IMG/VR virus record: IMGVR_UViG_3300021440_000066
Location: 1 to 38,291 of that record
Reading direction: 5' to 3' (one strand)
From: a virus
DNA length: 38,291 nt
The notes below the pieces were generated by a model that had not been told where the DNA came from, made no database searches, and saw only the letters and a list, made by a program, of their open reading frames with translations. Each line of letters opens with the position of its first letter. Within the stretch, counting starts at the first letter, position 1. Below, piece by piece: positions 2,547-28,621 of the stretch. Made by a program: the position numbers and the translations under genes.

Positions 2547-3119
2547 ATGACCATCATCCGCACCCAATCGCAGATCGCCGACGCCAGCACCGCCGATCTC
2601 ATCGAGACGTACAACGCCCTCACCGGCAAGTCCATCTCCCGCTTCTCCAGCCGCGGCGCTGGTGAATCGCAGGTGGCCAACGCCATCATGGCCGCGCAGG
2701 ACCACGCCGGGCACCTCGGTGTGCCGAAGGGCGCCGCCCCCGTCGCCATCACCGTCGCGGAGGCCACGGCGAAGGCCGCAGAAGCCAACGAAGCGCTCGC
2801 GCCAGCAGTCCCGCCCCAGTCGCTGCGCGCGAAGCTCGCCCTGGCCGCGGGAGACGCCTCGCCGCACACTCCGAAGCCCAAGTCCGACCGTCCCAAGACC
2901 AACGGCGCCGCGCGGACGAAGTTGGAGGCAGTCGTGCCGACTGGCGGCGGCAAGTTCCGCCTGCAAGCAGGCTCCTTGCGCGGCCAGATCATGGCCTTTG
3001 TCGAGTCGTCCGAGGGCAAGCCCGTGCAGATGGAGGCCATCGTGGCCAAGTTCGAGGAGCGCGCCCGCGGCGCGGTGCGGCTGCTGATGGATCGCGGGCA
3101 CTTGGAGGCCGCGCAGTGA
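2547..3119 (+). CDS. Putative DNA-binding protein, DUF3489-like N-terminus
   Basis: Encodes 190 residues from an ATG after ACCAGGAGCAC. The N-terminal part (about 12-45) contains STADLIETYNALTGKSISRF followed by a conserved Ser-Arg stretch, which resembles the start of DUF3489-type proteins of phages and Proteobacteria. An Ala/Pro/Lys-rich linker follows (about 70-125). The C-terminal 60 residues (LRGQIMAFVESSEGKPVQME ... FEERARGAVRLLMDRGHLE) fit a compact winged helix. I infer a nucleic-acid-binding role. The family match is from memory. The stop overlaps the start of the flavoprotein gene. Confidence 0.6.
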   Translation: MTIIRTQSQIADASTADLIETYNALTGKSISRFSSRGAGESQVANAIMAAQDHAGHLGVPKGAAPVAITVAEATAKAAEANEALAPAVPPQSLRAKLALAAGDASPHTPKPKSDRPKTNGAARTKLEAVVPTGGGKFRLQAGSLRGQIMAFVESSEGKPVQMEAIVAKFEERARGAVRLLMDRGHLEAAQ

Positions 3120-4033
3120 CGCAACCGTTCATCGTGGGAGCCGGGCTAACCGGCCTCCTCGCGGCGCACGCGTGGCCGCGGATGGCTGTGCTGGAAGCCG
3201 CGCCCGGCCCCGCCGCGGCTCACCGCGCCCTCCTCCGGTTCCGGACGGATGCCGTCAGCCACCTGACAGGCATAGCCTTCCGCAAAGTCAGCGTGCGCAA
3301 GGCCATAGTGGCGGGCGGCGCATTCGTGGCACCATCCATCCGCCTCGCCAACCAGTACTCGCTCAAGATCGCCGGCAGGATGTTGCCGGACCGGAGCATC
3401 TGGAACATCGAGACTGCCGACCGCTTCATTGCGCCGCCAGACTTCTATGAACAGATGGTTGAGGCGGTGGGCTCGCGCATCTTCTGGGGTGAGGTGGCCG
3501 ACATTGCTGGGGCCGCGGCAGCGCGCACCACGATGATTTCGACCGCACCCATGCCTTCGACGCTGGGCGCGCTGGGCATCGGCTCGCGGCTGCAGTTTGA
3601 GCGATCGGCCATCGTCGTTGACAGGCTGCGCGTGCCGTGCGCGGATGTGTTTCAGACGGTCTACTTTCCAGAAGCAGACACCCCCGTCTACCGCGCCTCC
3701 ATCACCGGCGACCTGCTCATTGTCGAGAGCATCGGCGAAGTCGGACCGGACCCCGGAGACATCGCCATGGTGCTGGACGCCTTCGGTGCCCCGCAAGCTG
3801 ACCAGATCGACCGCGCCGAGCAGCGATACGGGAAGATCGCGCCCATCGATGACGACGGGGCGCGGCGCGCATTGTTGTTCTCGCTGACGCGCGACTATGG
3901 CGTGTACTCGCTGGGGCGGTTCGCTGTGTGGAAAAATGTGTTGCTGGACGATGTGGTCGGTGACATCGCCTCGATCAAGCGCATGATGGCCGCAGACGCA
4001 TACACGCGCCGGCTGGTGGAGGCTGCGTTGTGA
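3116..4033 (+). CDS. FAD/NAD(P)-dependent oxidoreductase-like protein
   Basis: Encodes 305 residues from the GTG/ATG-type overlap with the previous stop. The N-terminus is a classical dinucleotide-binding Rossmann start: strand FIVGAG with G8-x-G10-x-x-G13, then an acidic residue E27 at the end of the second strand (AVLEAAPG), as in FAD-dependent oxidoreductases and the protoporphyrinogen oxidase/UDP-galactopyranose mutase-like group. The rest (DFYEQMVEAVGSRIF, LRVPCADVFQTVYFP) looks like the substrate domain of a small flavoprotein. At about 300 residues it is shorter than typical amine oxidases. The substrate is unknown. Its position before the ThyX-like gene suggests nucleotide chemistry or flavin supply. 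Confidence 0.7.
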   Translation: MTQPFIVGAGLTGLLAAHAWPRMAVLEAAPGPAAAHRALLRFRTDAVSHLTGIAFRKVSVRKAIVAGGAFVAPSIRLANQYSLKIAGRMLPDRSIWNIETADRFIAPPDFYEQMVEAVGSRIFWGEVADIAGAAAARTTMISTAPMPSTLGALGIGSRLQFERSAIVVDRLRVPCADVFQTVYFPEADTPVYRASITGDLLIVESIGEVGPDPGDIAMVLDAFGAPQADQIDRAEQRYGKIAPIDDDGARRALLFSLTRDYGVYSLGRFAVWKNVLLDDVVGDIASIKRMMAADAYTRRLVEAAL

Positions 4034-4299
4034 CCGCCCATCCGGCCACCGAGTTGTGGTGGACGCAGCGCGAAAAGTGCCGCCGTTGCACCCACCACTT
4101 CCGCTTCACATTGCGCCGCCGTGACGGCGAGGATGCGGGCGGGGAGCGTTGTCGCGCGTGTCCAGATAAGCAAGGCAAGCGCGCCTTCCTGTACTGCATC
4201 GACGCCCGGCTGGCGGACGGCCCTTGCGGCCCCGACGCCAGGCTGTTCTCGCCGCGACCGCCGCCGATCATCATCCACAAGACAAAGAAGGATGCGTGA
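4030..4299 (+). CDS. Cys-rich small protein, probable zinc-binding
   Basis: Encodes 89 residues from the GTG overlapping the previous stop. Cysteines occur in spaced pairs: CRRC near residue 17, CRAC near 42, then YCIDAR and GPCGPDARLF. The last two phrases recur in small phage proteins I have seen next to flavoprotein genes, but I know no assigned function. A zinc-binding fold that helps hold nucleic acid or a partner enzyme is the simplest reading. It ends in TGATG overlap with the next small gene. Confidence 0.65.
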   Translation: MTAHPATELWWTQREKCRRCTHHFRFTLRRRDGEDAGGERCRACPDKQGKRAFLYCIDARLADGPCGPDARLFSPRPPPIIIHKTKKDA

Positions 4300-4427
4300 T
4301 GGCAAGACCAAAAGGCGTGGCCAAGAACGCTGGACGGATTTATCTGCTTCTTGCGCGAGGTCGGTCCCGTTCCAAAGTTCATGATCAAGCCAAGTATCGG
4401 GCGCAAACGACACTCGATCGGATATGA
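4299..4427 (+). CDS. Very small basic protein
   Basis: A 42-residue open frame (MARPKGVAKNAGRIYLLLAR...) starting at the ATG that overlaps the previous stop and preceded by AAGAAGGATG. It is strongly basic. The pattern GRSRSKVHDQAKYRAQTTLD might be a short helix-turn-helix fragment, but it is too short to call. The coupling and ribosome site argue for translation. No similarity is recognised. Confidence 0.45.
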   Translation: MARPKGVAKNAGRIYLLLARGRSRSKVHDQAKYRAQTTLDRI

Positions 4428-4489
4428 GTCCGGAAACATAGCTTGGGAAGAGCACTCACTCAACAGCAGGAAAAGGCGAGGAACACGAT

Positions 4490-5248
4490 ATGAAAGTTGA
4501 ACTCATCAATTACACGCAAGATGCATTGACGCTACTCTTGCGCTCGAAAAATACGCGCTTGTCTTACAAGGACGATCCGGCAACGTGGAGCGACGAGAGG
4601 CGACAGGAGCACTTGGAGTACATGCGCGACACCATTAAGTCGAGTTGGGAGATGGTGGATTACGTCTTTCAAATCGAAGGTGTCACCCGCGCCTTCACGC
4701 ACCAGCTTGTGCGCACCCGGACGGGCAGCTACGCGCAACAGGCCATGCGCGTGGTGGACGCCCGCCGCCAGCCCGTTGAGCGCCCACCGTCCATCGCAGA
4801 CAACGACCTGTGGTTGCGCATCTGGGAAGCCGGTGAGGCGACGGCGCTGGGCGCGTACGCCGACCTCATGGACCACGGTGCGCCGGCCCAGGACGCGCGC
4901 GGCATCCTTCCAACCCACATCACCACATCCATCATGGCCAAGTTCAACTTGCGCACGCTGCACGAGATGGCCAAGCTGCGGCTGTGCACCCGGACCCAGG
5001 GCGAGTACCAGGACGTGTTCCGCGCGATGCGCGCTGCGGTTGTCGAAGTCCATCCGTGGGCAGAGGAGTTCATCGAGGTGCACTGCGTCGCGACCGGCAC
5101 CTGCGCCTTCCCCCGGTACGGCAAGACCGAGTGCCCCGTATACCTGCCCGAGATGGACAACACCGCGGTGCGCGAGCGCGCCAAGGAGATTTTCTGGAAA
5201 GTGCGGCACGAAGCCGCGCCCGTGGCCAAGGACGGGAGGGCCATGTGA
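4490..5248 (+). CDS. thyX: Divergent flavin-dependent thymidylate synthase (ThyX family)
   Basis: Encodes 252 residues after GCGAGGAACACGAT. The ThyX core is clear: VTRAFTHQLVRTRTGSYAQQ (66-84) aligns with the family stretch that holds RHR(x7)S, and LRLCTRTQGEYQDV matches the later conserved helix that binds substrate. Canonical ThyX makes dTMP from dUMP using FAD, NADPH and methylenetetrahydrofolate. Here the motif reads R75-T76-R77 with Ala at 85, so the His and Ser are replaced. The Glu-His of the preceding conserved strand is Glu-Met (54-55). The flavin/dUMP-binding Arg residues remain. It may be a changed-function relative, as PolB of polyoxin biosynthesis is (a UMP C5-methylase). Upstream DNA is AT-richer than its neighbours. 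Confidence 0.8.
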   Translation: MKVELINYTQDALTLLLRSKNTRLSYKDDPATWSDERRQEHLEYMRDTIKSSWEMVDYVFQIEGVTRAFTHQLVRTRTGSYAQQAMRVVDARRQPVERPPSIADNDLWLRIWEAGEATALGAYADLMDHGAPAQDARGILPTHITTSIMAKFNLRTLHEMAKLRLCTRTQGEYQDVFRAMRAAVVEVHPWAEEFIEVHCVATGTCAFPRYGKTECPVYLPEMDNTAVRERAKEIFWKVRHEAAPVAKDGRAM

Positions 5249-5733
5249 TGTTGAACCTGGCCATCTGGGACCTGGACAACTGTTTGGCGGATGACGCGTG
5301 GCGCATCCCCTTCGTGGACTGGCACGCGGCGAGCGTGCGCGAGCGCTACGCCCGGTATCACGAGTTGTGCATCCGCGACCGCCCAGGCAACACCGAAGAA
5401 TTCCGGCGATCGGTGGCCGCCGCGGAGCCGCTGTTCATCACCGGGCGCCCCGACAGCGTGCGTTGCAAGACCATCCATTGGATCGCGCAGCACCTGGGCG
5501 TGGATTGGCCGCGACTGCTCATGCGCGGCGACACCGATCACCGGCCATCCGTGAATGTGAAGATGGAGGCGCTGGTGGCCGAGTTGTCGCGGCTCGGCGG
5601 CGCGCACATCATTCGGGCCTACGACGACCGGGAGGACATCGTGCAGATGTACCACGACACCTTCGACATCGACGCGCGGCTGCTCGGCATCCATTCCGTC
5701 GATGCCTACGCGCGCCCACGGGAGGTTGCATGA
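5248..5733 (+). CDS. HAD-superfamily phosphatase, PNKP/nucleotidase-like
   Basis: Encodes 161 residues from ATG 5248 after GGGAGGG. All HAD phosphatase motifs are visible: motif I D8-L-D10 (IWDLDNCL), motif II Thr65 in FITGRPD, motif III Lys105, motif IV D126-D127 in YDDRED. The order and spacing resemble the 3'-phosphatase domain of T4 PseT-type polynucleotide kinase and small deoxynucleotidases, with no kinase domain. It should remove phosphate from a nucleotide or nucleic-acid end. Between a ThyX-like and a nucleotide-modification-type gene, a nucleotide substrate is likely. A DNA-repair end-processing role is the alternative. Confidence 0.75.
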   Translation: MLNLAIWDLDNCLADDAWRIPFVDWHAASVRERYARYHELCIRDRPGNTEEFRRSVAAAEPLFITGRPDSVRCKTIHWIAQHLGVDWPRLLMRGDTDHRPSVNVKMEALVAELSRLGGAHIIRAYDDREDIVQMYHDTFDIDARLLGIHSVDAYARPREVA

Positions 5734-6101
5734 GCCAAAGTGACTTGATGGACGGGTGCGGCGTTCACGGGGAATTTGGCCCCGTGCAGGGCGCACGCCC
5801 GGCGCCCAATTTCAACACGGCGCTCGCCTCAGACATCCTCGCCGCGGGCGCCAAGACCTACGCCGAGCGCAACAAGACGTACGGCGAGAATTACCGCATG
5901 GTCGCGCCGATCATGAAGGTGTTGTTTCCGTACGGCGTGCCCGCTGGCACCATCCATTCGGACAAGTGGCACCTGTTTGAATTGCTGGTTGTCAAGATCA
6001 CCCGCTTTGCCACCAGCAAGTTGGCGCACCAGGATTCGATCCACGACGCGATGGTGTACGCGGCGATGATCGAGGCATCAATCAAGGAGGAGCAACAATG
6101 A
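5730..6101 (+). CDS. Nmad1/DUF1599-like (or DUF6378-like) phage protein
   Basis: Encodes 123 residues, starting at ATG 5730 after GGGAGGTTGC. From about residue 42 the sequence is AERNKTYGENY, then a variable stretch, then HLFELLVVKITRFATSKLAH and a final helix with DSIHDAMVYAAMIEA. This order (R..TYG, a helix with a K..R step, then HxDSIxDxxxY) resembles DUF1599/Nmad1, a helical family described as associated with thymidylate-synthase-like and base-modification genes, and also DUF6378 and MazG-like proteins. The role may be nucleotide binding or pyrophosphate removal. I cannot separate these families by eye. Confidence 0.6.
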   Translation: MSQSDLMDGCGVHGEFGPVQGARPAPNFNTALASDILAAGAKTYAERNKTYGENYRMVAPIMKVLFPYGVPAGTIHSDKWHLFELLVVKITRFATSKLAHQDSIHDAMVYAAMIEASIKEEQQ

Positions 6102-6778
6102 GCACCATTCTTATCACCGGAGCCGGCGCCGGGTTGGGCCGTGCGATTTACGACGCCTTGGGCGCGCATGGCCATCTGGTCCTGGCCTTCGACCGCAAGC
6201 TGGGCCACGACGTGCGCGACCCGGAGGGCACCTACGGCGGGCCGGCGCCAGCGGTTGACATCCTCATCAACTGCGCAGGCGTGAACATCACCGGATGGCT
6301 GGAAAACTTCTCCGAGTCCGACTGGGACGAAGTGCTGGACATCAACGCCAAGGGCATCTACAAGATGACCCAGTGGGCGCTGCCGGGACTGATCGAAAGC
6401 CGCGGCACCATCCTCAACATCGTCAGCAACGCCAGCCACATGCCGATGACAACATCGTTGGCTTACAACGCCTCCAAGGGCGCCGCGCACATCATGACGC
6501 TGCAGCTCGCCCGTGAGCTCACCAAGCGCCACGGCATCACGGTGTTCGGCATCAGCCCCAACAAGCTACGCGGCACCGAGATGAGCCGCGACATCGAGCG
6601 CCAAGTGGTCCAGCATCGCGGCTGGACGCCAGAGTATGCCGCAGAGTACCAGCGCGGCTCGCTGCTTTGTGGCGAGGAGACGGACCCGGCGATGCTGGCG
6701 GAGTTTATCGCCTTTCTTCTTTCCGACAAGCAGCGACACAAATTCCTGTCCGGCTGCATCATCCCTTATGGAGCGTAA
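6098..6778 (+). CDS. Short-chain dehydrogenase/reductase (SDR)
   Basis: Encodes 226 residues, starting in overlap with the previous stop after AAGGAGGAGC. All classical SDR marks are present: TGAGAGLG (7-14) for cofactor binding, Asp32 at the end of strand 2 suggesting NAD(H), NCAG (58-61), a catalytic Ser near 110-113 (IVSNAS), and Y123-x3-K127 (YNASK). The length is usual for the family. SDR enzymes oxidise alcohols or reduce ketones and aldehydes. An SDR is uncommon among phage replication genes. Placed between Nmad1-like and VOC genes, it may act on an oxidised nucleotide side group, but the substrate is unknown. Confidence 0.85.
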   Translation: MSTILITGAGAGLGRAIYDALGAHGHLVLAFDRKLGHDVRDPEGTYGGPAPAVDILINCAGVNITGWLENFSESDWDEVLDINAKGIYKMTQWALPGLIESRGTILNIVSNASHMPMTTSLAYNASKGAAHIMTLQLARELTKRHGITVFGISPNKLRGTEMSRDIERQVVQHRGWTPEYAAEYQRGSLLCGEETDPAMLAEFIAFLLSDKQRHKFLSGCIIPYGA

Positions 6779-6779
6779 C

Positions 6780-7304
6780 GTGAAATTCTTTATTGAGCAA
6801 ATTGCCCTGTGCCCGCCGCGGCCCGACGAGGCGTTGTTGCTGTTGACGGCGCTTGGGCTGGACGAGTGGGCGCTGGACACCGTCACGGCAGTCGGCGAAG
6901 TCTGGGGGGGCGAACACCCCGAACGCAACGTGGCGGAGTTGGCATTCAACTATCAGTCCAGCCGCGGCGTCGAGACTTACGACCCTGTAACGCAGTTCGC
7001 CACAGGCAACAGCTCCGCCGCAAAGCCTTTGGAGCTGGAGGTGCTGCACTACCGAGAGGGCAACAACTGGATGCAAGGCTCGGCGCCGCGCGTCTCGCAC
7101 CTGGGCATGCACGTGACGGTGGACGAGCACGAACGCTTTGACAACACCCTGCGCGGGTTGGGCTACAAGGTTGCGCAGGCGGTGCGCACCACCAGCCACA
7201 CCAACCCGGCCATCGCCGGGAAGCGCGTGTACGACTACTTCATCTACGACACCTACGTTGTGCTGGGCGTCGATCTGAAGTTCATCATCAGGCACGTGCT
7301 GTGA
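6780..7304 (+). CDS. VOC (glyoxalase-fold) protein
   Basis: Encodes 174 residues from GTG 6780, preferred over an ATG at 6768 because GGAG lies 6 bases upstream. The sequence splits into two beta-alpha-beta-beta-beta modules: residues 2-90 (FFIEQIALCPPRPDEALLLL ... LELEVLHY) and about 104-174 (RVSHLGMHVTVDEHERFDNT ... VVLGVDLKFIIRHVL). This is the vicinal-oxygen-chelate pattern, with candidate metal ligands Glu in LELEVLHY and His in SHLGMHV. VOC proteins are lyases, isomerases, dioxygenases or resistance proteins acting with a metal ion. The substrate is unknown. The GTGA at its end couples it to the exonuclease. Confidence 0.65.
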   Translation: MKFFIEQIALCPPRPDEALLLLTALGLDEWALDTVTAVGEVWGGEHPERNVAELAFNYQSSRGVETYDPVTQFATGNSSAAKPLELEVLHYREGNNWMQGSAPRVSHLGMHVTVDEHERFDNTLRGLGYKVAQAVRTTSHTNPAIAGKRVYDYFIYDTYVVLGVDLKFIIRHVL

Positions 7305-7846
7305 ACGAGTGCGCCATCATCTTCGACACCGAAACGACGGGCCTGACTTTGCACCCGTCAGCCGACATTGCGTTGCAGCCGCGCATGATCGAGTTCGGCG
7401 CGGTGCTCTTGTCGCTGGCGGACGGCAGCATTGTCGAGGAGGCCAGCATCCTCATCAATCCTGGCGCCCCGTTGCCTGCTGAGATTGTGAAGATCACGGG
7501 CATCACAGACGACGATCTGAGGGATGCGCCAACGTTCGTTGATGTCCTCCCTCAGATTCAGCGCACCTTTGCGTCCGCGTCCGCAGTCGTCGCGCACAAC
7601 CTGCCTTTCGACCGGGCGATACTTCGCGGCGAGCTTCTCCGGGCGAAAATCGACGTGTTCCCTTGGCCCGCACGCGAGACGTGCACAGTGGGGCTTTACC
7701 GATCAGAATGGGGCCGCAACCCGCGGCTGATTGAGTTGTACGAGGCCACCATGGGCCGATCCCTCGCCCAGACGCACCGCGCGCTGGACGATGTGAAGGC
7801 CATGGTGGAAATCATCCAAAAGGAGGAGCTGTGGCGCATCTTCTAG
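7301..7846 (+). CDS. DEDDh 3'-5' exonuclease (DnaQ-like)
   Basis: Encodes 181 residues from the GTG overlapping the previous stop. The exonuclease motifs are complete: Exo I D9-T-E11-T-T-G, Exo II with H99-N and F103-D104, and Exo III H159-R-A-L-D-D164, the DEDDh type of DnaQ/epsilon. The enzyme removes mismatched 3' nucleotides. It lies 211 bases before the DnaE-like gene, so it is probably the proofreading partner of the phage polymerase supplied as a separate chain. There is no extra polymerase-clamp tail as in E. coli epsilon. Confidence 0.9.
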   Translation: MNECAIIFDTETTGLTLHPSADIALQPRMIEFGAVLLSLADGSIVEEASILINPGAPLPAEIVKITGITDDDLRDAPTFVDVLPQIQRTFASASAVVAHNLPFDRAILRGELLRAKIDVFPWPARETCTVGLYRSEWGRNPRLIELYEATMGRSLAQTHRALDDVKAMVEIIQKEELWRIF

Positions 7847-8061
7847 TTCGTCCTGGACCCGTCATGGGACTGTTACAACCTTGCCCATTTTGCGGCAGCA
7901 CCATCGACGCGAAGGTCATCCGTAACCACATCTTTCCGTTGCGACAACACTGCGATGTGTCGTCCGAATTCACCAACTGCGTGGTCTGCTCCTGCGGCGC
8001 GCAAGGTCCGGAGAAGTCCGCCGAGGCGGACGCCATCCACGCCTGGAATCGTCGGCCATGA
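7831..8061 (+). CDS. Lar-like zinc-ribbon protein
   Basis: Encodes 76 residues from GTG 7831, which has AGGAGGAGCT directly upstream. The ATG at 7864 has no such site. The core reads PCPFCGS (about 18-24), then CVVCSCGA (about 50-57), and ends AIHAWNRRP. This is the Lar restriction-alleviation family layout: LxPCPFCG, a central Cys pair, then a terminal A..AWN.R. Lar of Rac prophage reduces type I restriction by the host. Many phage proteins carry the fold without tested activity, so the anti-restriction role is a suggestion. Confidence 0.7.
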   Translation: MAHLLVRPGPVMGLLQPCPFCGSTIDAKVIRNHIFPLRQHCDVSSEFTNCVVCSCGAQGPEKSAEADAIHAWNRRP

Positions 8062-10877
8062 CCTTCCCCCAACTCCGCATCCGCAGCGAGTTCAGTTTCC
8101 GCGACGGGCGCGGCGCGGCGGCATACGGCCCGTTGCCGGCGATCGCGGCGCGACTCGCTGAAATCGGTTGCACGACCGCGGGGCTAGTGGACGTATCGAC
8201 CTGGGGCCACACCCGTTGGGCTAAAACCATGCGGGAGCCGCTTTTCGGCGTGGAGCTAGCCGTTGCCCTTCCGGACGGACGCCGGCCCACAGCATGGGCT
8301 CTAGCGGGCGCCTCGTCGCGCGACCTGTACCGCCTTTCGACCGCCGCGCGGCGCAAGGATGCCGACCGGGCGGAGCTGTTCCGAGCCGCGGCCGGAAAAG
8401 TGTTGCGGTTCGCGGGCAGCGCGCTGACCGATCCAGAGTGCTTCGACTACGTGGATGTGAACCCGTCATCCGCTCGCGCCGCGATGGCAGCTGTGAGGCT
8501 GGCAAGCGCGACGGGCAAACCTCTCGTCCTTACCAGCGACAACGCCTTCCCCGCGCCGCGACACAAGAATGCGTTTCTAGCCATCGGTGGACGGGAGGCT
8601 GTCACGCCGCAGCACATTCTCAGCCTGGAGGAGTTGTGGGATGCGCTGGGCGGCATCCTCGGACGCGACGCATTCGACGTTGCTGTGGCCAACACCATCG
8701 CGGTCGCGGCGCGCGCCTGCCGTACGCTCGACACCGCCCCCATCATCCGCGTGCCCGGCGACCTGCGCGCAGAAGTCGAGAATGGCAAGGCATGGCGCCT
8801 CGCCGCGGGGCACCTCCCCGAGTGGACCGAGGTGCACGAGGCGCGCATCCAGCGCGAGCTGGAGCTGATCGAGCTGAAGCGGTACGAGTCGTACTTCTTG
8901 ATGGTGGCCGATCTTGTGCAATGGGCCAAGACCAAGATGCTCGTCGGGCCGGGCCGTGGCAGCAGTGCCGGATCGCTCGTGTGCTACCTGCTCCGCATCA
9001 CAGAGGTGAACCCGCTGGATCACGACTTGCTGTTTGAGCGGTTCATCGACGTCACCCGCAGCGATCTGCCCGACATCGACATCGACTTCAACGACACGAA
9101 GCGCGACATGGTGTTCGCGTATCTGGAGCACAAGTACGGCCGCGAGCACGTCGCGCGGCTCGGCAACGTCATCACCCTCAAGCCCCGCAGCGCCATCGCC
9201 GAAGTCGGCAAGCGCCTGGGAATCCCGCCGAGCGACACTTTCGACTTGGCCAATGTGCTGATTGAATACTCGTCGGGCGACTCGCGTTATGGAAAGGGAC
9301 TGGAGGACACCATCAACGGCACCGCGCCCGGCCGCGCGTTCATCGCGAAGCATCCCGCCGCGCAGGTCATGGCGGAAATCGAGGGGCACGCCTGGCACAC
9401 AGGCATCCACGCCGCGGGCGTCGTCGTGTGCAACGATCCCGTCAGCGACTTCGCGACGGTTGGAGACGATGGCGTGGCCCACATCGACAAGCCCGCGGCA
9501 GAGGCGCTGGGGCTGCTGAAGATCGACGCTCTGGGCCTCCGGACGCTGGGAGTCATCGAGGACTCCGGCGCAGTCTCGTCGGAACAGTTGTACGGGCTTC
9601 CGTTGAACGATACCGAAGTGTTCACAATCTTCAACGATAAGAAGTTCAGCGGCATTTTCCAGTTCGAGGGCGCGACGCAGCGCGGAGTGTCAGCGCAAAT
9701 CGACATCGACTCATTCCGCCGCATCGACCACGTGACCGCGCTGGCCCGGCCCGGCCCGCTGGGCGGCGGCGCCTCGCATCACTACATCGCCCGCGCCGCG
9801 GGGCGCGAGGAGGTCACCTATCGGCACCCGTCCATGGCGCCGTACTTGGCACAGACAATGGGCGTTATCCTGTATCAAGAGCAGGTCATGCGCATCGTCC
9901 GTGAGCTTGGCCAGTTTAGCTGGGAGGCGACGACCATCATCCGCAAGGCCATGTCCGGCCGCAAAGGCAAGGAATTCTTCGACGCTCGTGGAGCGGAGTT
10001 TGTGACTGGAGCCGCGACAGTCGGCGTGTCCTCGGGCGACGCGGCGGTGATCTGGGACGAGATCAACAATTTTGGCGCTTGGGGCATGAATGCCAGTCAC
10101 ACCGTCTCATACGGCATCATCAGCTATTGGTGCGCGTGGATGAAGCGTTACCATCCGTTGGAGTATGCCGCCGCGTGCCTACGCGGCGCGAAGGATGACG
10201 ATCAGGCCACCGAAGTGCTGCGCGAGATGGTCGCGGAAGGCGTCAAGTACATCGCCTTCGACGTGGACCGTTCGGAGGCCACTTGGTCGGTGAAAGATGG
10301 TGAGTTGATCGGAGGATTCCAGAACGTCCGCGGCATCGGCCCGATCATGGCCGCGCGGTACGTCGAGGATCGCCGCGCAGGCAAGCTCGACGCCAAGAAG
10401 CGCGAGAAAATCGCCAAGATGCCCGTCCAGTTCAACGACCTGCGCCCGGCGCACACGTTGTGGGGCCACATCTATTCCGATCCAGAGGCGCACGGCATCG
10501 TGGGCCGGGTGGAGGAGTTCGGGAAACTGCCCGAGCACGGCCGCGACGACTCCGCCGCAGTCATCGGCCTCGTCAAGAAGCGCGTGCGCCGCGACCGCAA
10601 TGAATCGATCCTCGTCAAGCGCCGCGGCGGCGAAGTTTTCAAAGGCCAGCCTCTATTCCTGGACGTGTTTGTCGTGGACGACTCCACAAGCAAGCCCGTC
10701 ATCGCCCGCATCGGCGAAAAGTTGTGGGACAGCGTCGGCGTGCACGCCGCGAACAACCTTGTGGACGACGAAGACTGGCTGCTCATGCGCGGCCGGTGGC
10801 TCAAGGAGTTCAACATGCTGTTGGTGACGAAGGTGAAGTGTCTCAATCGGCCGGAGGCGTTGAATGCGTCTGCCTGA
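8058..10877 (+). CDS. dnaE: DNA polymerase III alpha-like replicative polymerase (DnaE family)
   Basis: Encodes 939 residues, shorter than bacterial DnaE (about 1160). The start overlaps the previous stop. The polymerase core has the catalytic PDIDIDF at 338-344 and the third acidic residue D490 in KIDALGLRTL. It is followed by ARPGPLGGG and VILYQEQVMRI, which match DnaE palm and finger signatures. The N-terminal PHP domain is degenerate: the usual HxH reads RIRS near residues 7-10. The C-terminus lacks a long tau-binding region but keeps a beta-rich segment that may be an OB fold. It should replicate the phage genome with the DEDDh exonuclease at 7301. Confidence 0.95.
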   Translation: MTFPQLRIRSEFSFRDGRGAAAYGPLPAIAARLAEIGCTTAGLVDVSTWGHTRWAKTMREPLFGVELAVALPDGRRPTAWALAGASSRDLYRLSTAARRKDADRAELFRAAAGKVLRFAGSALTDPECFDYVDVNPSSARAAMAAVRLASATGKPLVLTSDNAFPAPRHKNAFLAIGGREAVTPQHILSLEELWDALGGILGRDAFDVAVANTIAVAARACRTLDTAPIIRVPGDLRAEVENGKAWRLAAGHLPEWTEVHEARIQRELELIELKRYESYFLMVADLVQWAKTKMLVGPGRGSSAGSLVCYLLRITEVNPLDHDLLFERFIDVTRSDLPDIDIDFNDTKRDMVFAYLEHKYGREHVARLGNVITLKPRSAIAEVGKRLGIPPSDTFDLANVLIEYSSGDSRYGKGLEDTINGTAPGRAFIAKHPAAQVMAEIEGHAWHTGIHAAGVVVCNDPVSDFATVGDDGVAHIDKPAAEALGLLKIDALGLRTLGVIEDSGAVSSEQLYGLPLNDTEVFTIFNDKKFSGIFQFEGATQRGVSAQIDIDSFRRIDHVTALARPGPLGGGASHHYIARAAGREEVTYRHPSMAPYLAQTMGVILYQEQVMRIVRELGQFSWEATTIIRKAMSGRKGKEFFDARGAEFVTGAATVGVSSGDAAVIWDEINNFGAWGMNASHTVSYGIISYWCAWMKRYHPLEYAAACLRGAKDDDQATEVLREMVAEGVKYIAFDVDRSEATWSVKDGELIGGFQNVRGIGPIMAARYVEDRRAGKLDAKKREKIAKMPVQFNDLRPAHTLWGHIYSDPEAHGIVGRVEEFGKLPEHGRDDSAAVIGLVKKRVRRDRNESILVKRRGGEVFKGQPLFLDVFVVDDSTSKPVIARIGEKLWDSVGVHAANNLVDDEDWLLMRGRWLKEFNMLLVTKVKCLNRPEALNASA

Positions 10878-27180: not shown

Positions 27181-27375
27181 CTAGCTAACTCCTTCGGAAG
27201 ATTTGGGTGTGATGCTCTTGCGCGCCTTTGCCGCGGGCGCGGGGGCTTGCCTTGCGGCGGGCGGGGCAAATTTTGAGTCGATGATGTTGAAGCCCTGGGC
27301 GCGAAGCTCAGCCTTGCGCTCGCGGCTCACTGGGTGCGGTTCGTAGACAACTGGTCTTTGTCGGGTTCCCATCAT
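27181..27375 (-). CDS. Small basic protein
   Basis: Encodes 64 residues from ATG at 27375 (the ORF could begin at 27417, but then it overlaps the upstream gene by 46 bases). Reads MMGTRQRPVVYEPHPVSRER, then KAELRAQGFNIIDSKFAPP, and a Pro/Ala/Lys tail. KAELRAQGFNIIDSKFAPP resembles the short HeH-like helix-extended-loop-helix element of small DNA-binding or capsid-associated phage proteins. Coupled by overlap to the upstream gene. Confidence 0.6.
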   Translation of the reverse strand: MMGTRQRPVVYEPHPVSRERKAELRAQGFNIIDSKFAPPAARQAPAPAAKARKSITPKSSEGVS

Positions 27376-28064
27376 GCGTCCACTTCCATCAACGAGCGGT
27401 GTTTTAACTGGCGCCACACTTCGGCCTTCGGAATCCGCAGCACAGTCCCCACCGGGTATTCGACGCCACGGATTTCAACGGGCTTAATGACCTTGATGGT
27501 GATGCCGTGTTCGACCTCCTTGAAGTCGAACACGGACGGCGCCACGTACTGCGGCAGCACCTCCTCCGCATCGTACGCCGGCCACACATCCAGCAACGGC
27601 CCGCTCACAACACGCACCGCGCAGCCCAGGAATTGTGCGTACTCCTTGTGCTGGCCGAGCGTCCGATGCGTCCCGCCATAGCAGCCGTACCCGGCCATGA
27701 TGACGGGATGCGCCCCGAGCATGCTGGCGACCCACTGTGCGACGACTCCGGTGAACATCAACCGCGGCGCCAACGGATAGTTGGTGATGCCGTAGTCGCA
27801 CCAGTGCCACGGGCCGATGATCGGAGCGTCGGTGAACTGGCGGATGATTCCGCGCATCGGGTCTTTGTGGACCGTGTGCAGGTTGTCCATCGCCACCACG
27901 TAGTCCACCGGACGCAGTGCGGCGCCGTGTTGATTGGCGCTGATCCAGATGTCGGCTTCGACCCGTGCGATGTCGTCGGCGAGAGATGGTCCGCCGCCCA
28001 TCACGCAGATGCGCGCCCCTCTGTGACGCATCACCAACTCGCCGAAGCTACGCAGCGCGATCAT
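27372..28064 (-). CDS. DUF115/MptE-like Rossmann protein
   Basis: Encodes 230 residues from ATG 28064, which overlaps the methyltransferase stop. The N-terminus has ARICVMGGGPSLADDIARV (17-35), a Rossmann-like GGGPSL followed by ADIWISANQHGAAL, and DYVVAMDNLHTV, the pattern of DUF115/MptE-related enzymes and flagellin-modification (Maf) proteins. The family includes 6-hydroxymethylpterin pyrophosphokinase and putative sugar-transfer enzymes. The ending (VEIRGVEYPVGTVLRIPKAE) is beta-rich. Its partner is the class I methyltransferase just upstream, so both may modify the same phage or host molecule. Confidence 0.65.
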   Translation of the reverse strand: MIALRSFGELVMRHRGARICVMGGGPSLADDIARVEADIWISANQHGAALRPVDYVVAMDNLHTVHKDPMRGIIRQFTDAPIIGPWHWCDYGITNYPLAPRLMFTGVVAQWVASMLGAHPVIMAGYGCYGGTHRTLGQHKEYAQFLGCAVRVVSGPLLDVWPAYDAEEVLPQYVAPSVFDFKEVEHGITIKVIKPVEIRGVEYPVGTVLRIPKAEVWRQLKHRSLMEVDA

Positions 28065-28621
28065 GGTGCGCACACCGCCAGGAGGTGCTTGCGCTTGATC
28101 ATCCTCGTTTCGACATCGCCCGAGAAGTGCGCCGTCAGCCGCTCGATCCACCACTCAGGCGGGAACACGCTCAGGTGCAGCGGCCCGTGTTGTGTGAAGT
28201 GGCTGTCGTGAAACAACGCGATCTGAAAGTAGCACGCCTTCCGAGTGTGCCGAGCGATGCCCGCGAGGACATCGTCCACACGCTCGGGCGGAATGTGTTC
28301 CATTACGTCCGCACAGAAACCATAATCCGTCTGCCCAAGGCCATCAGGCAAGGACCACAAGCAAGCCTCCACGAACGGCAGTTCGCCTTCATACGCATTC
28401 GCAGCAATGTCCACCAGCCACACATCGAATTCCCGAGCATAAAGCTCAGCCGCGACGCGTCCGGTCCCGCATCCCCAGTCCGTGAATGAGGAGTACGGGT
28501 CCGGACGCATCCATTCGAGCGCGAATCCCAAGTGCCGCGCTCCGGGCGAAACCTCGCGGTAAAGCGGGTTCGCCCAAGTTGCGCGGTACTTGGTGGCCTC
28601 GCGGTCTAGCAGTGCGTCCAC
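28061..28621 (-). CDS. Class I SAM-dependent methyltransferase
   Basis: Encodes 186 residues from GTG 28621. Motif I DWGCGTG (48-54), motif II acidic residue in VWLVDIA, and ADVMEHIPPE near 100 are typical of small class I Rossmann methyltransferases. It lacks target-recognition domains and the DPPY-type motif of DNA amino-methyltransferases, so a small molecule, sugar, lipid or protein substrate is more likely than DNA. It lies between capsid and tail genes, coupled to the DUF115-like gene. An O-methyl addition to a glycan or to a structural protein is a reasonable but unproven use. Confidence 0.85.
   Translation of the reverse strand: MDALLDREATKYRATWANPLYREVSPGARHLGFALEWMRPDPYSSFTDWGCGTGRVAAELYAREFDVWLVDIAANAYEGELPFVEACLWSLPDGLGQTDYGFCADVMEHIPPERVDDVLAGIARHTRKACYFQIALFHDSHFTQHGPLHLSVFPPEWWIERLTAHFSGDVETRMIKRKHLLAVCAP

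Follow-up and report, generated by a model that had tools for sequence, protein, structure and literature searches.

The window analysed here is the whole of IMG/VR virus record IMGVR_UViG_3300021440_000066 (38,291 bp), which is probably part of a larger genome. Its genes at 3116-7304 probably constitute a modular DNA-base hypermodification cluster that is carried together with a DnaE-type replication module. The gene pattern fits base hypermodification far better than the supply of dTMP; which base is altered, by which chemistry, and whether before or after replication, is what we infer in the sections below. The original prediction, made from the window alone, had set a nucleotide-modification pathway against plain dTMP supply; comparison with related phages bears out this central idea, and the reading as a whole is supported in part.

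Conserved core and gene order

The conserved core is made up of a flavoprotein (3116-4033), a divergent ThyX-family enzyme (4490-5248), a HAD phosphatase of the PNKP/5'-nucleotidase type (5248-5733) and an all-alpha Nmad-like protein (5730-6101), lying directly before dnaQ and dnaE. In the window, an optional module composed of an SDR oxidoreductase (6098-6778) and a VOC-type protein (6780-7304) is inserted ahead of the genes for a DnaQ-like exonuclease (7301-7846), which adjoins the cluster in nearly all relatives, and a DnaE-like DNA polymerase (8058-10877). All of these are encoded on the plus strand. The cluster genes were found at the positions and in the order given by the original prediction, and junctions of the GTGA/ATGA/TGATG type were read from the sequence at 3116, 4030, 5248, 5730, 6098 and 7301. 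At third codon positions, the flavoprotein and SDR genes have a GC content (GC3) of 0.82-0.84.

An IMG/VR scan seeded with ThyX alone yielded the 80 loci taken as best by E-value. The flavoprotein was present in all 58 of these loci that have at least 4 kb of upstream sequence, and among those with at least 6 kb downstream DnaE was found in 57/57, the Nmad-like domain in 51 and the HAD protein in 49. When all scans were pooled, 170 of the 178 related loci had the genes in this order, and on this ground a chance arrangement is excluded. Independent scattering of the genes among relatives, the outcome that the original prediction had named as speaking against it, was looked for; what was found is co-occurrence, along with co-inheritance of SDR and VOC (see below).

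The full run flavoprotein-ThyX-HAD/Nmad-like-SDR-VOC-dnaQ-dnaE was observed in Luteibacter phage Pluto, Xanthomonas phage XcP1, Serratia phage MTx, Escherichia phage Mansfield (Wifcevirus) and Aeromonas phage Gekk3-15; Pbunavirus and Burkholderia phage WTB keep this order but lack SDR and VOC. Searches with tblastn placed the flavoprotein in 359 phage records and the VOC protein in 54, and the record counts of flavoprotein and ThyX agree by host genus (Pseudomonas 291/291, Escherichia 27/27, Serratia 9/9, Xanthomonas 6/6).

Similar sets are found in unrelated phages. In Rhizobium phage TM40 (Kleczkowskaviridae, 207 kb), the flavoprotein, ThyX and a HAD-type protein with a Nmad-like domain lie within 7 kb and adjoin genes for dUTPase and ribonucleotide reductase. 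Microbacterium phage Sparcetus carries a flavoprotein of phrog_8720 with HAD, SDR, VOC and Nmad-like homologues, followed by DnaE, GT2 and a ThyX whose motif, RQR-x7-S, is changed at the same histidine as in the relatives of the window enzyme. Comparison of phrog_4828, the family of the window flavoprotein, with the actinophage family phrog_8720 by hhalign gave 69.6%, mainly over the FAD-binding start, and the homology of the two is only suggestive. Subsets, in which the flavoprotein is accompanied by ThyX and/or a phosphatase, a methyltransferase and a FabG-like gene and then by DnaE, were seen in phages Krampus, SirHarley, Xenia2 and Gibson. The HAD proteins of Sparcetus and SirHarley match the 5'-deoxyribonucleotidase NT5C, a mononucleotide enzyme. 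As a separate observation, Mycobacterium phage SirHarley and Gordonia phage Xenia2 have the order flavoprotein-deoxyribonucleotidase/phosphatase-methyltransferase-FabG-like-DnaE; these gene sets are possibly the same kind of system.

Core, optional and exchangeable enzymes

The ThyX-family enzyme scores above the curated cut-offs of PF02511 (Thy1; E 5e-34, 118.2 bits against 24.8) and TIGR02170 (92.5 bits against an equivalog cut-off of 87.9), and the Arg positions that, from general knowledge, we take to contact dUMP are conserved. It differs from these families in its signature, which reads RTR-x7-A and not the canonical RHR-x7-S. In most of 173 relatives RHR-x7-S is replaced by R[TS]R-x7-[TSA]: the signature His is kept in 2%, the last position is occupied by T (49%), S (28%) or A (21%), and Arg takes the place of H178 in 98%. 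The altered motif was confirmed by alignment to the solved chains 3n0b and 3gwc. This pattern is consistent with, but does not prove, an enzyme that still acts on this type of substrate while catalysing a different reaction.

For the flavoprotein, which has a GxGxxG motif, phrog_4828 (function unknown) was the sole family match in Pfam, PHROGs and NCBIfam (E 2.7e-89), and sequence searches of the PDB gave nothing significant, the best match to UDP-galactopyranose mutase (UGM) having an E-value of 0.88. A Foldseek comparison, as proposed with the original prediction, was run on models of the flavoprotein and the Nmad-like protein. The AlphaFold2 model of the former (pLDDT 86.5) had UGM as its top matches over the whole length (E 1.5e-10, query TM 0.65), which gives the protein a UGM-type fold as judged from the model, and the copies in Wifcevirus and Pbunavirus have already been annotated as UGM. 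It differs from UGM in that the identity is ~12-15%, in that it is ~60-200 residues shorter, and in that other FAD oxidoreductases, namely D-amino-acid and glycine oxidases at lower rank, match the model too. UGM catalysis proceeds via a flavin N5 adduct, and chemistry of this type would suit the handling of an appended carbon unit by the flavoprotein.

The HAD protein scores above the cut-off of PF25109, also matches phrog_415 and phrog_4889, and has catalytic residues (D8, D10, T65, K105, D126, D127) that are conserved across relatives; their roles, like those of the SDR and GlyI-type VOC residues given below, are taken from general knowledge. The 123-aa Nmad-like protein had been called Nmad1-like, and this label had to be given up: PF07659 (Nmad1/DUF1599) was not matched in the Pfam search, and membership of Nmad1 was rejected. 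It falls below the cut-off of DUF6378 (19.1 against 27.1) and corresponds to the C-terminal half of phrog_4889 (E 1.7e-22), of which the HAD protein forms the N-terminal half. Since phrog_4889 spans both, many relatives have the two joined in a single protein; they are fused as one open reading frame (ORF) in 39/79 non-redundant relatives, and this state changes 11 times across the DnaE tree. The model of the Nmad-like protein (pLDDT 74.8) had no significant Foldseek match, and the idea that it is a MazG-like NTP-pyrophosphatase is neither supported nor excluded by the fold search.

The SDR protein matches PF00106 (E 2.2e-33), carries the TGxxxGxG motif as TGAGAGLG, and has a tetrad (N83, S110, Y123, K127) that is present in 100% of 86 sequences. 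The VOC protein has no significant match in Pfam, PHROGs, NCBIfam or by sequence in the PDB; its likely assignment rests on the names given to orthologues and on Q7, E87, H107 and D165, which form a GlyI-like metal pattern and are conserved among the phages of Pseudomonadota. No VOC homologues were found in plasmids. Gains and losses were mapped onto a DnaE tree built from 90 non-redundant loci, and independent contrasts were taken on its supported branches. The tree shows 20 changes in the presence of SDR and 15 in that of VOC; of 15 independent contrasts, about 11 have VOC following SDR and none runs in the opposite direction (p ~0.001). The two genes form an optional pair that is acquired or lost jointly.

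In relatives, other enzymes occupy the slot between the flavoprotein and DnaE. A carbamoyltransferase is present in six loci, never together with SDR/VOC, and a radical SAM/SPASM protein in seven; further slot genes confirmed by Pfam encode a sulfotransferase, FkbM and other methyltransferases, a class II aldolase, a dCTP-deaminase-like protein and a GINT1-type glycosyltransferase. One glycosyltransferase-like slot protein matches phrog_842, the T4-type hydroxymethylcytosine (HMC) glucosyltransferase family (beta-glucosyl-HMC-alpha-glucosyltransferase). SDR/VOC and the remaining tailoring genes show no more than a tendency to exclude each other (p ~0.1). When all ORFs of the related loci were searched with eleven tailoring-enzyme representatives, 32 hits fell inside the flavoprotein-DnaE interval (0.67 Mb) and 0 outside it (1.55 Mb). 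Because most of the slot enzymes are transferases acting on hydroxyl groups, the core product would be expected to bear a hydroxyl group. The original prediction had seen no known hypermodification enzyme; this holds for the window cluster and fails for its relatives, in which radical SAM proteins, glycosyltransferases and carbamoyltransferases are found in the same slot. In four loci without SDR and VOC, a radical SAM/SPASM protein and a 291-aa protein are encoded downstream of the Nmad-like gene; the latter resembles thymidylate synthase (TS) by eye only, has no Pfam or PHROGs match, and was not called as TS-like.

Proposed route, known systems and rival explanations

In the proposed mechanism, the first step would fall to the ThyX-like enzyme, which would use flavin and folate to attach a one-carbon unit at C5 of a pyrimidine deoxynucleotide. 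Its substrate is most likely dUMP, and the product would differ from plain dTMP, for example by being a 5-hydroxymethyl-dU or a dU with further substitution. The C5 unit may then be elaborated by the UGM-fold flavoprotein, and the HAD and Nmad-like proteins would act on nucleotides, for example to clear the canonical competitor. In phages with SDR and VOC, including this one, SDR would oxidise or reduce the appended group and VOC would rearrange it. The altered base could then shield the genome from restriction. Phages with and without SDR/VOC are predicted to differ, and the cluster, if correctly read, offers a large testable set of natural variants of one DNA-base chemistry.

Phages M6, ViI and SP10 reportedly carry clusters for thymidine hypermodification derived from 5-hydroxymethyl-dU (5-hmdU), with a TS-type first step, tailoring by flavin and radical SAM enzymes, combinatorial variation and protection from restriction. 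The present cluster resembles these pathways in its proposed thymidylate-synthase-type first step, in the flavin and, among relatives, radical SAM enzymes that are candidates for tailoring, in its combinatorial variation and in the predicted protection from restriction, but differs in that the candidate for the first step is ThyX and not a TS-family dUMP hydroxymethylase. Neither the latter enzyme nor a 5-hmdU kinase, aGPT-PPlase or pyridoxal-phosphate (PLP) enzyme was found among the cluster genes with Pfam, PHROGs and NCBIfam, with which part of the window ORFs was scanned. It is put forward only tentatively, though with a sizeable chance of being right, that the route is an undescribed one, in which the substituent is built by a ThyX put to a new use together with a UGM-type flavoprotein and is finished by exchangeable modules (SDR and VOC, carbamoyl, glycosyl, sulfo, methyl, radical SAM). 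No published description of such a route was found; if real, it would apply to therapeutic phages of Pbunavirus and to many actinobacteriophages. Part of the modification may already be known from work on END nucleases: a preprint on such nucleases 'targeting multiple hypermodified phage genomes' (Yee et al. 2025) is cited in papers on Pbunavirus, which carries the cluster core, although it differs from the window cluster in lacking SDR and VOC.

Wifcevirus phages were reported to resist every restriction-modification (RM) system tested except EcoP1_I, by a protection mechanism that is not known (PMC11990801). Members of this group, including Bas98-101, appear among the ThyX and VOC matches and carry the full cluster. 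Hypermodification by the cluster, if true, would explain the escape of both Wifcevirus and Pbunavirus, the latter widely used in phage therapy, from restriction, and also what modification-dependent nucleases recognise. Several points weigh against it. No chemical measurement of the bases was found for any phage with the cluster. The sensitivity of Wifcevirus to EcoP1_I is not explained by the cluster; another type III system with similar numbers of sites is resisted, and this unexplained contrast (PMC11990801) could hint at which base is altered. Protection need not stem from the base, because the window holds, between dnaQ and dnaE, a Lar-family restriction-alleviation-like zinc protein gene (7831-8061; TIGR03655 41.0 bits against a cut-off of 39.6; PF14354), a second possible anti-restriction gene. 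The tailoring families had themselves been selected from within the interval, so that the inside/outside count is biased and shows confinement, not unbiased enrichment. Moreover, the Nmad-like model matched no fold significantly, and ThyX may simply make dTMP, as TIGR02170 still scores it as an equivalog.

The last point leads to ordinary nucleotide supply, in which ThyX makes dTMP, the HAD and Nmad-like proteins keep dNMP pools in balance, and the other three genes (flavoprotein, SDR and VOC) merely happen to lie in the replication operon as cargo of no related function. The equivalog score, the conserved Arg positions presumed to bind dUMP and the position of ThyX near dUTPase and ribonucleotide reductase in TM40 are in line with it, yet it is unlikely: the flavoprotein occurs in every covered locus and accompanies ThyX in unrelated phages as well, SDR and VOC come and go jointly, the slot is filled by glycosyl-, carbamoyl-, sulfo- and radical SAM enzymes, and no other cause is known for the RM resistance of Wifcevirus. 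It is more improbable still that the product is a small molecule outside DNA, such as a sugar nucleotide or an anti-defence metabolite; the UGM-type fold, SDR, VOC, class II aldolase and glycosyltransferases all belong to families of sugar chemistry, whereas the proteins constantly encoded alongside are a nucleotide enzyme (ThyX), a HAD of nucleotidase type and the replicative polymerase.

A different question is posed by the stage of synthesis. The enzymes might act on DNA carrying a ThyX-made 5-substituted dU, the base not being fully built as a dNTP, and this post-replicative course is a real possibility, if a rather doubtful one. Known thymidine hypermodifications are completed on the polymer, the HAD is a member of the polynucleotide phosphatase (PNKP) family, and the glycosyl-, carbamoyl- and sulfotransferases of relatives could work on the polymer. 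The match of the Sparcetus and SirHarley HAD proteins to NT5C points the other way, as does the usual action of SDR and VOC families on small molecules.

Neighbouring genes and the mosaic genome

The original prediction had counted two further frames as part of the pathway, and these were dropped from the cluster. The Cys-rich ORF at 4030-4299 (plus strand) has no family match in Pfam, PHROGs or NCBIfam and, among the loci listed, an HMM match only in the nearest relative; it is lineage-specific, probably lies outside the system, and was rejected as a component for lack of conservation. The tiny frame at 4299-4427 was rejected likewise, being neither conserved nor supported as a gene.

The genome is a mosaic. 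The virion genes (17374-38220, minus strand) are of siphovirus type, and the tape measure protein is 77% identical to that of siphovirus ctUtU524 (MW202621), which among sequenced phages is the closest in its virion; the replication module, in contrast, resembles the one found in Pbunavirus and Wifcevirus myoviruses. The replication region of MW202621 (4618-7694 of its locus) encodes PolA (family A), a TS-family 'pyrimidine hmase', a dCMP deaminase and a PRA-PH-like NTP-PPase, which is probably a different base-modification set. A related virion with a different polymerase and a different candidate set would suit the travelling of polymerase and modification genes as a unit. Among the head genes of the window (27372-28621, minus strand), a SAM methyltransferase gene (28061-28621) overlaps that of an unclassified 260-aa protein.

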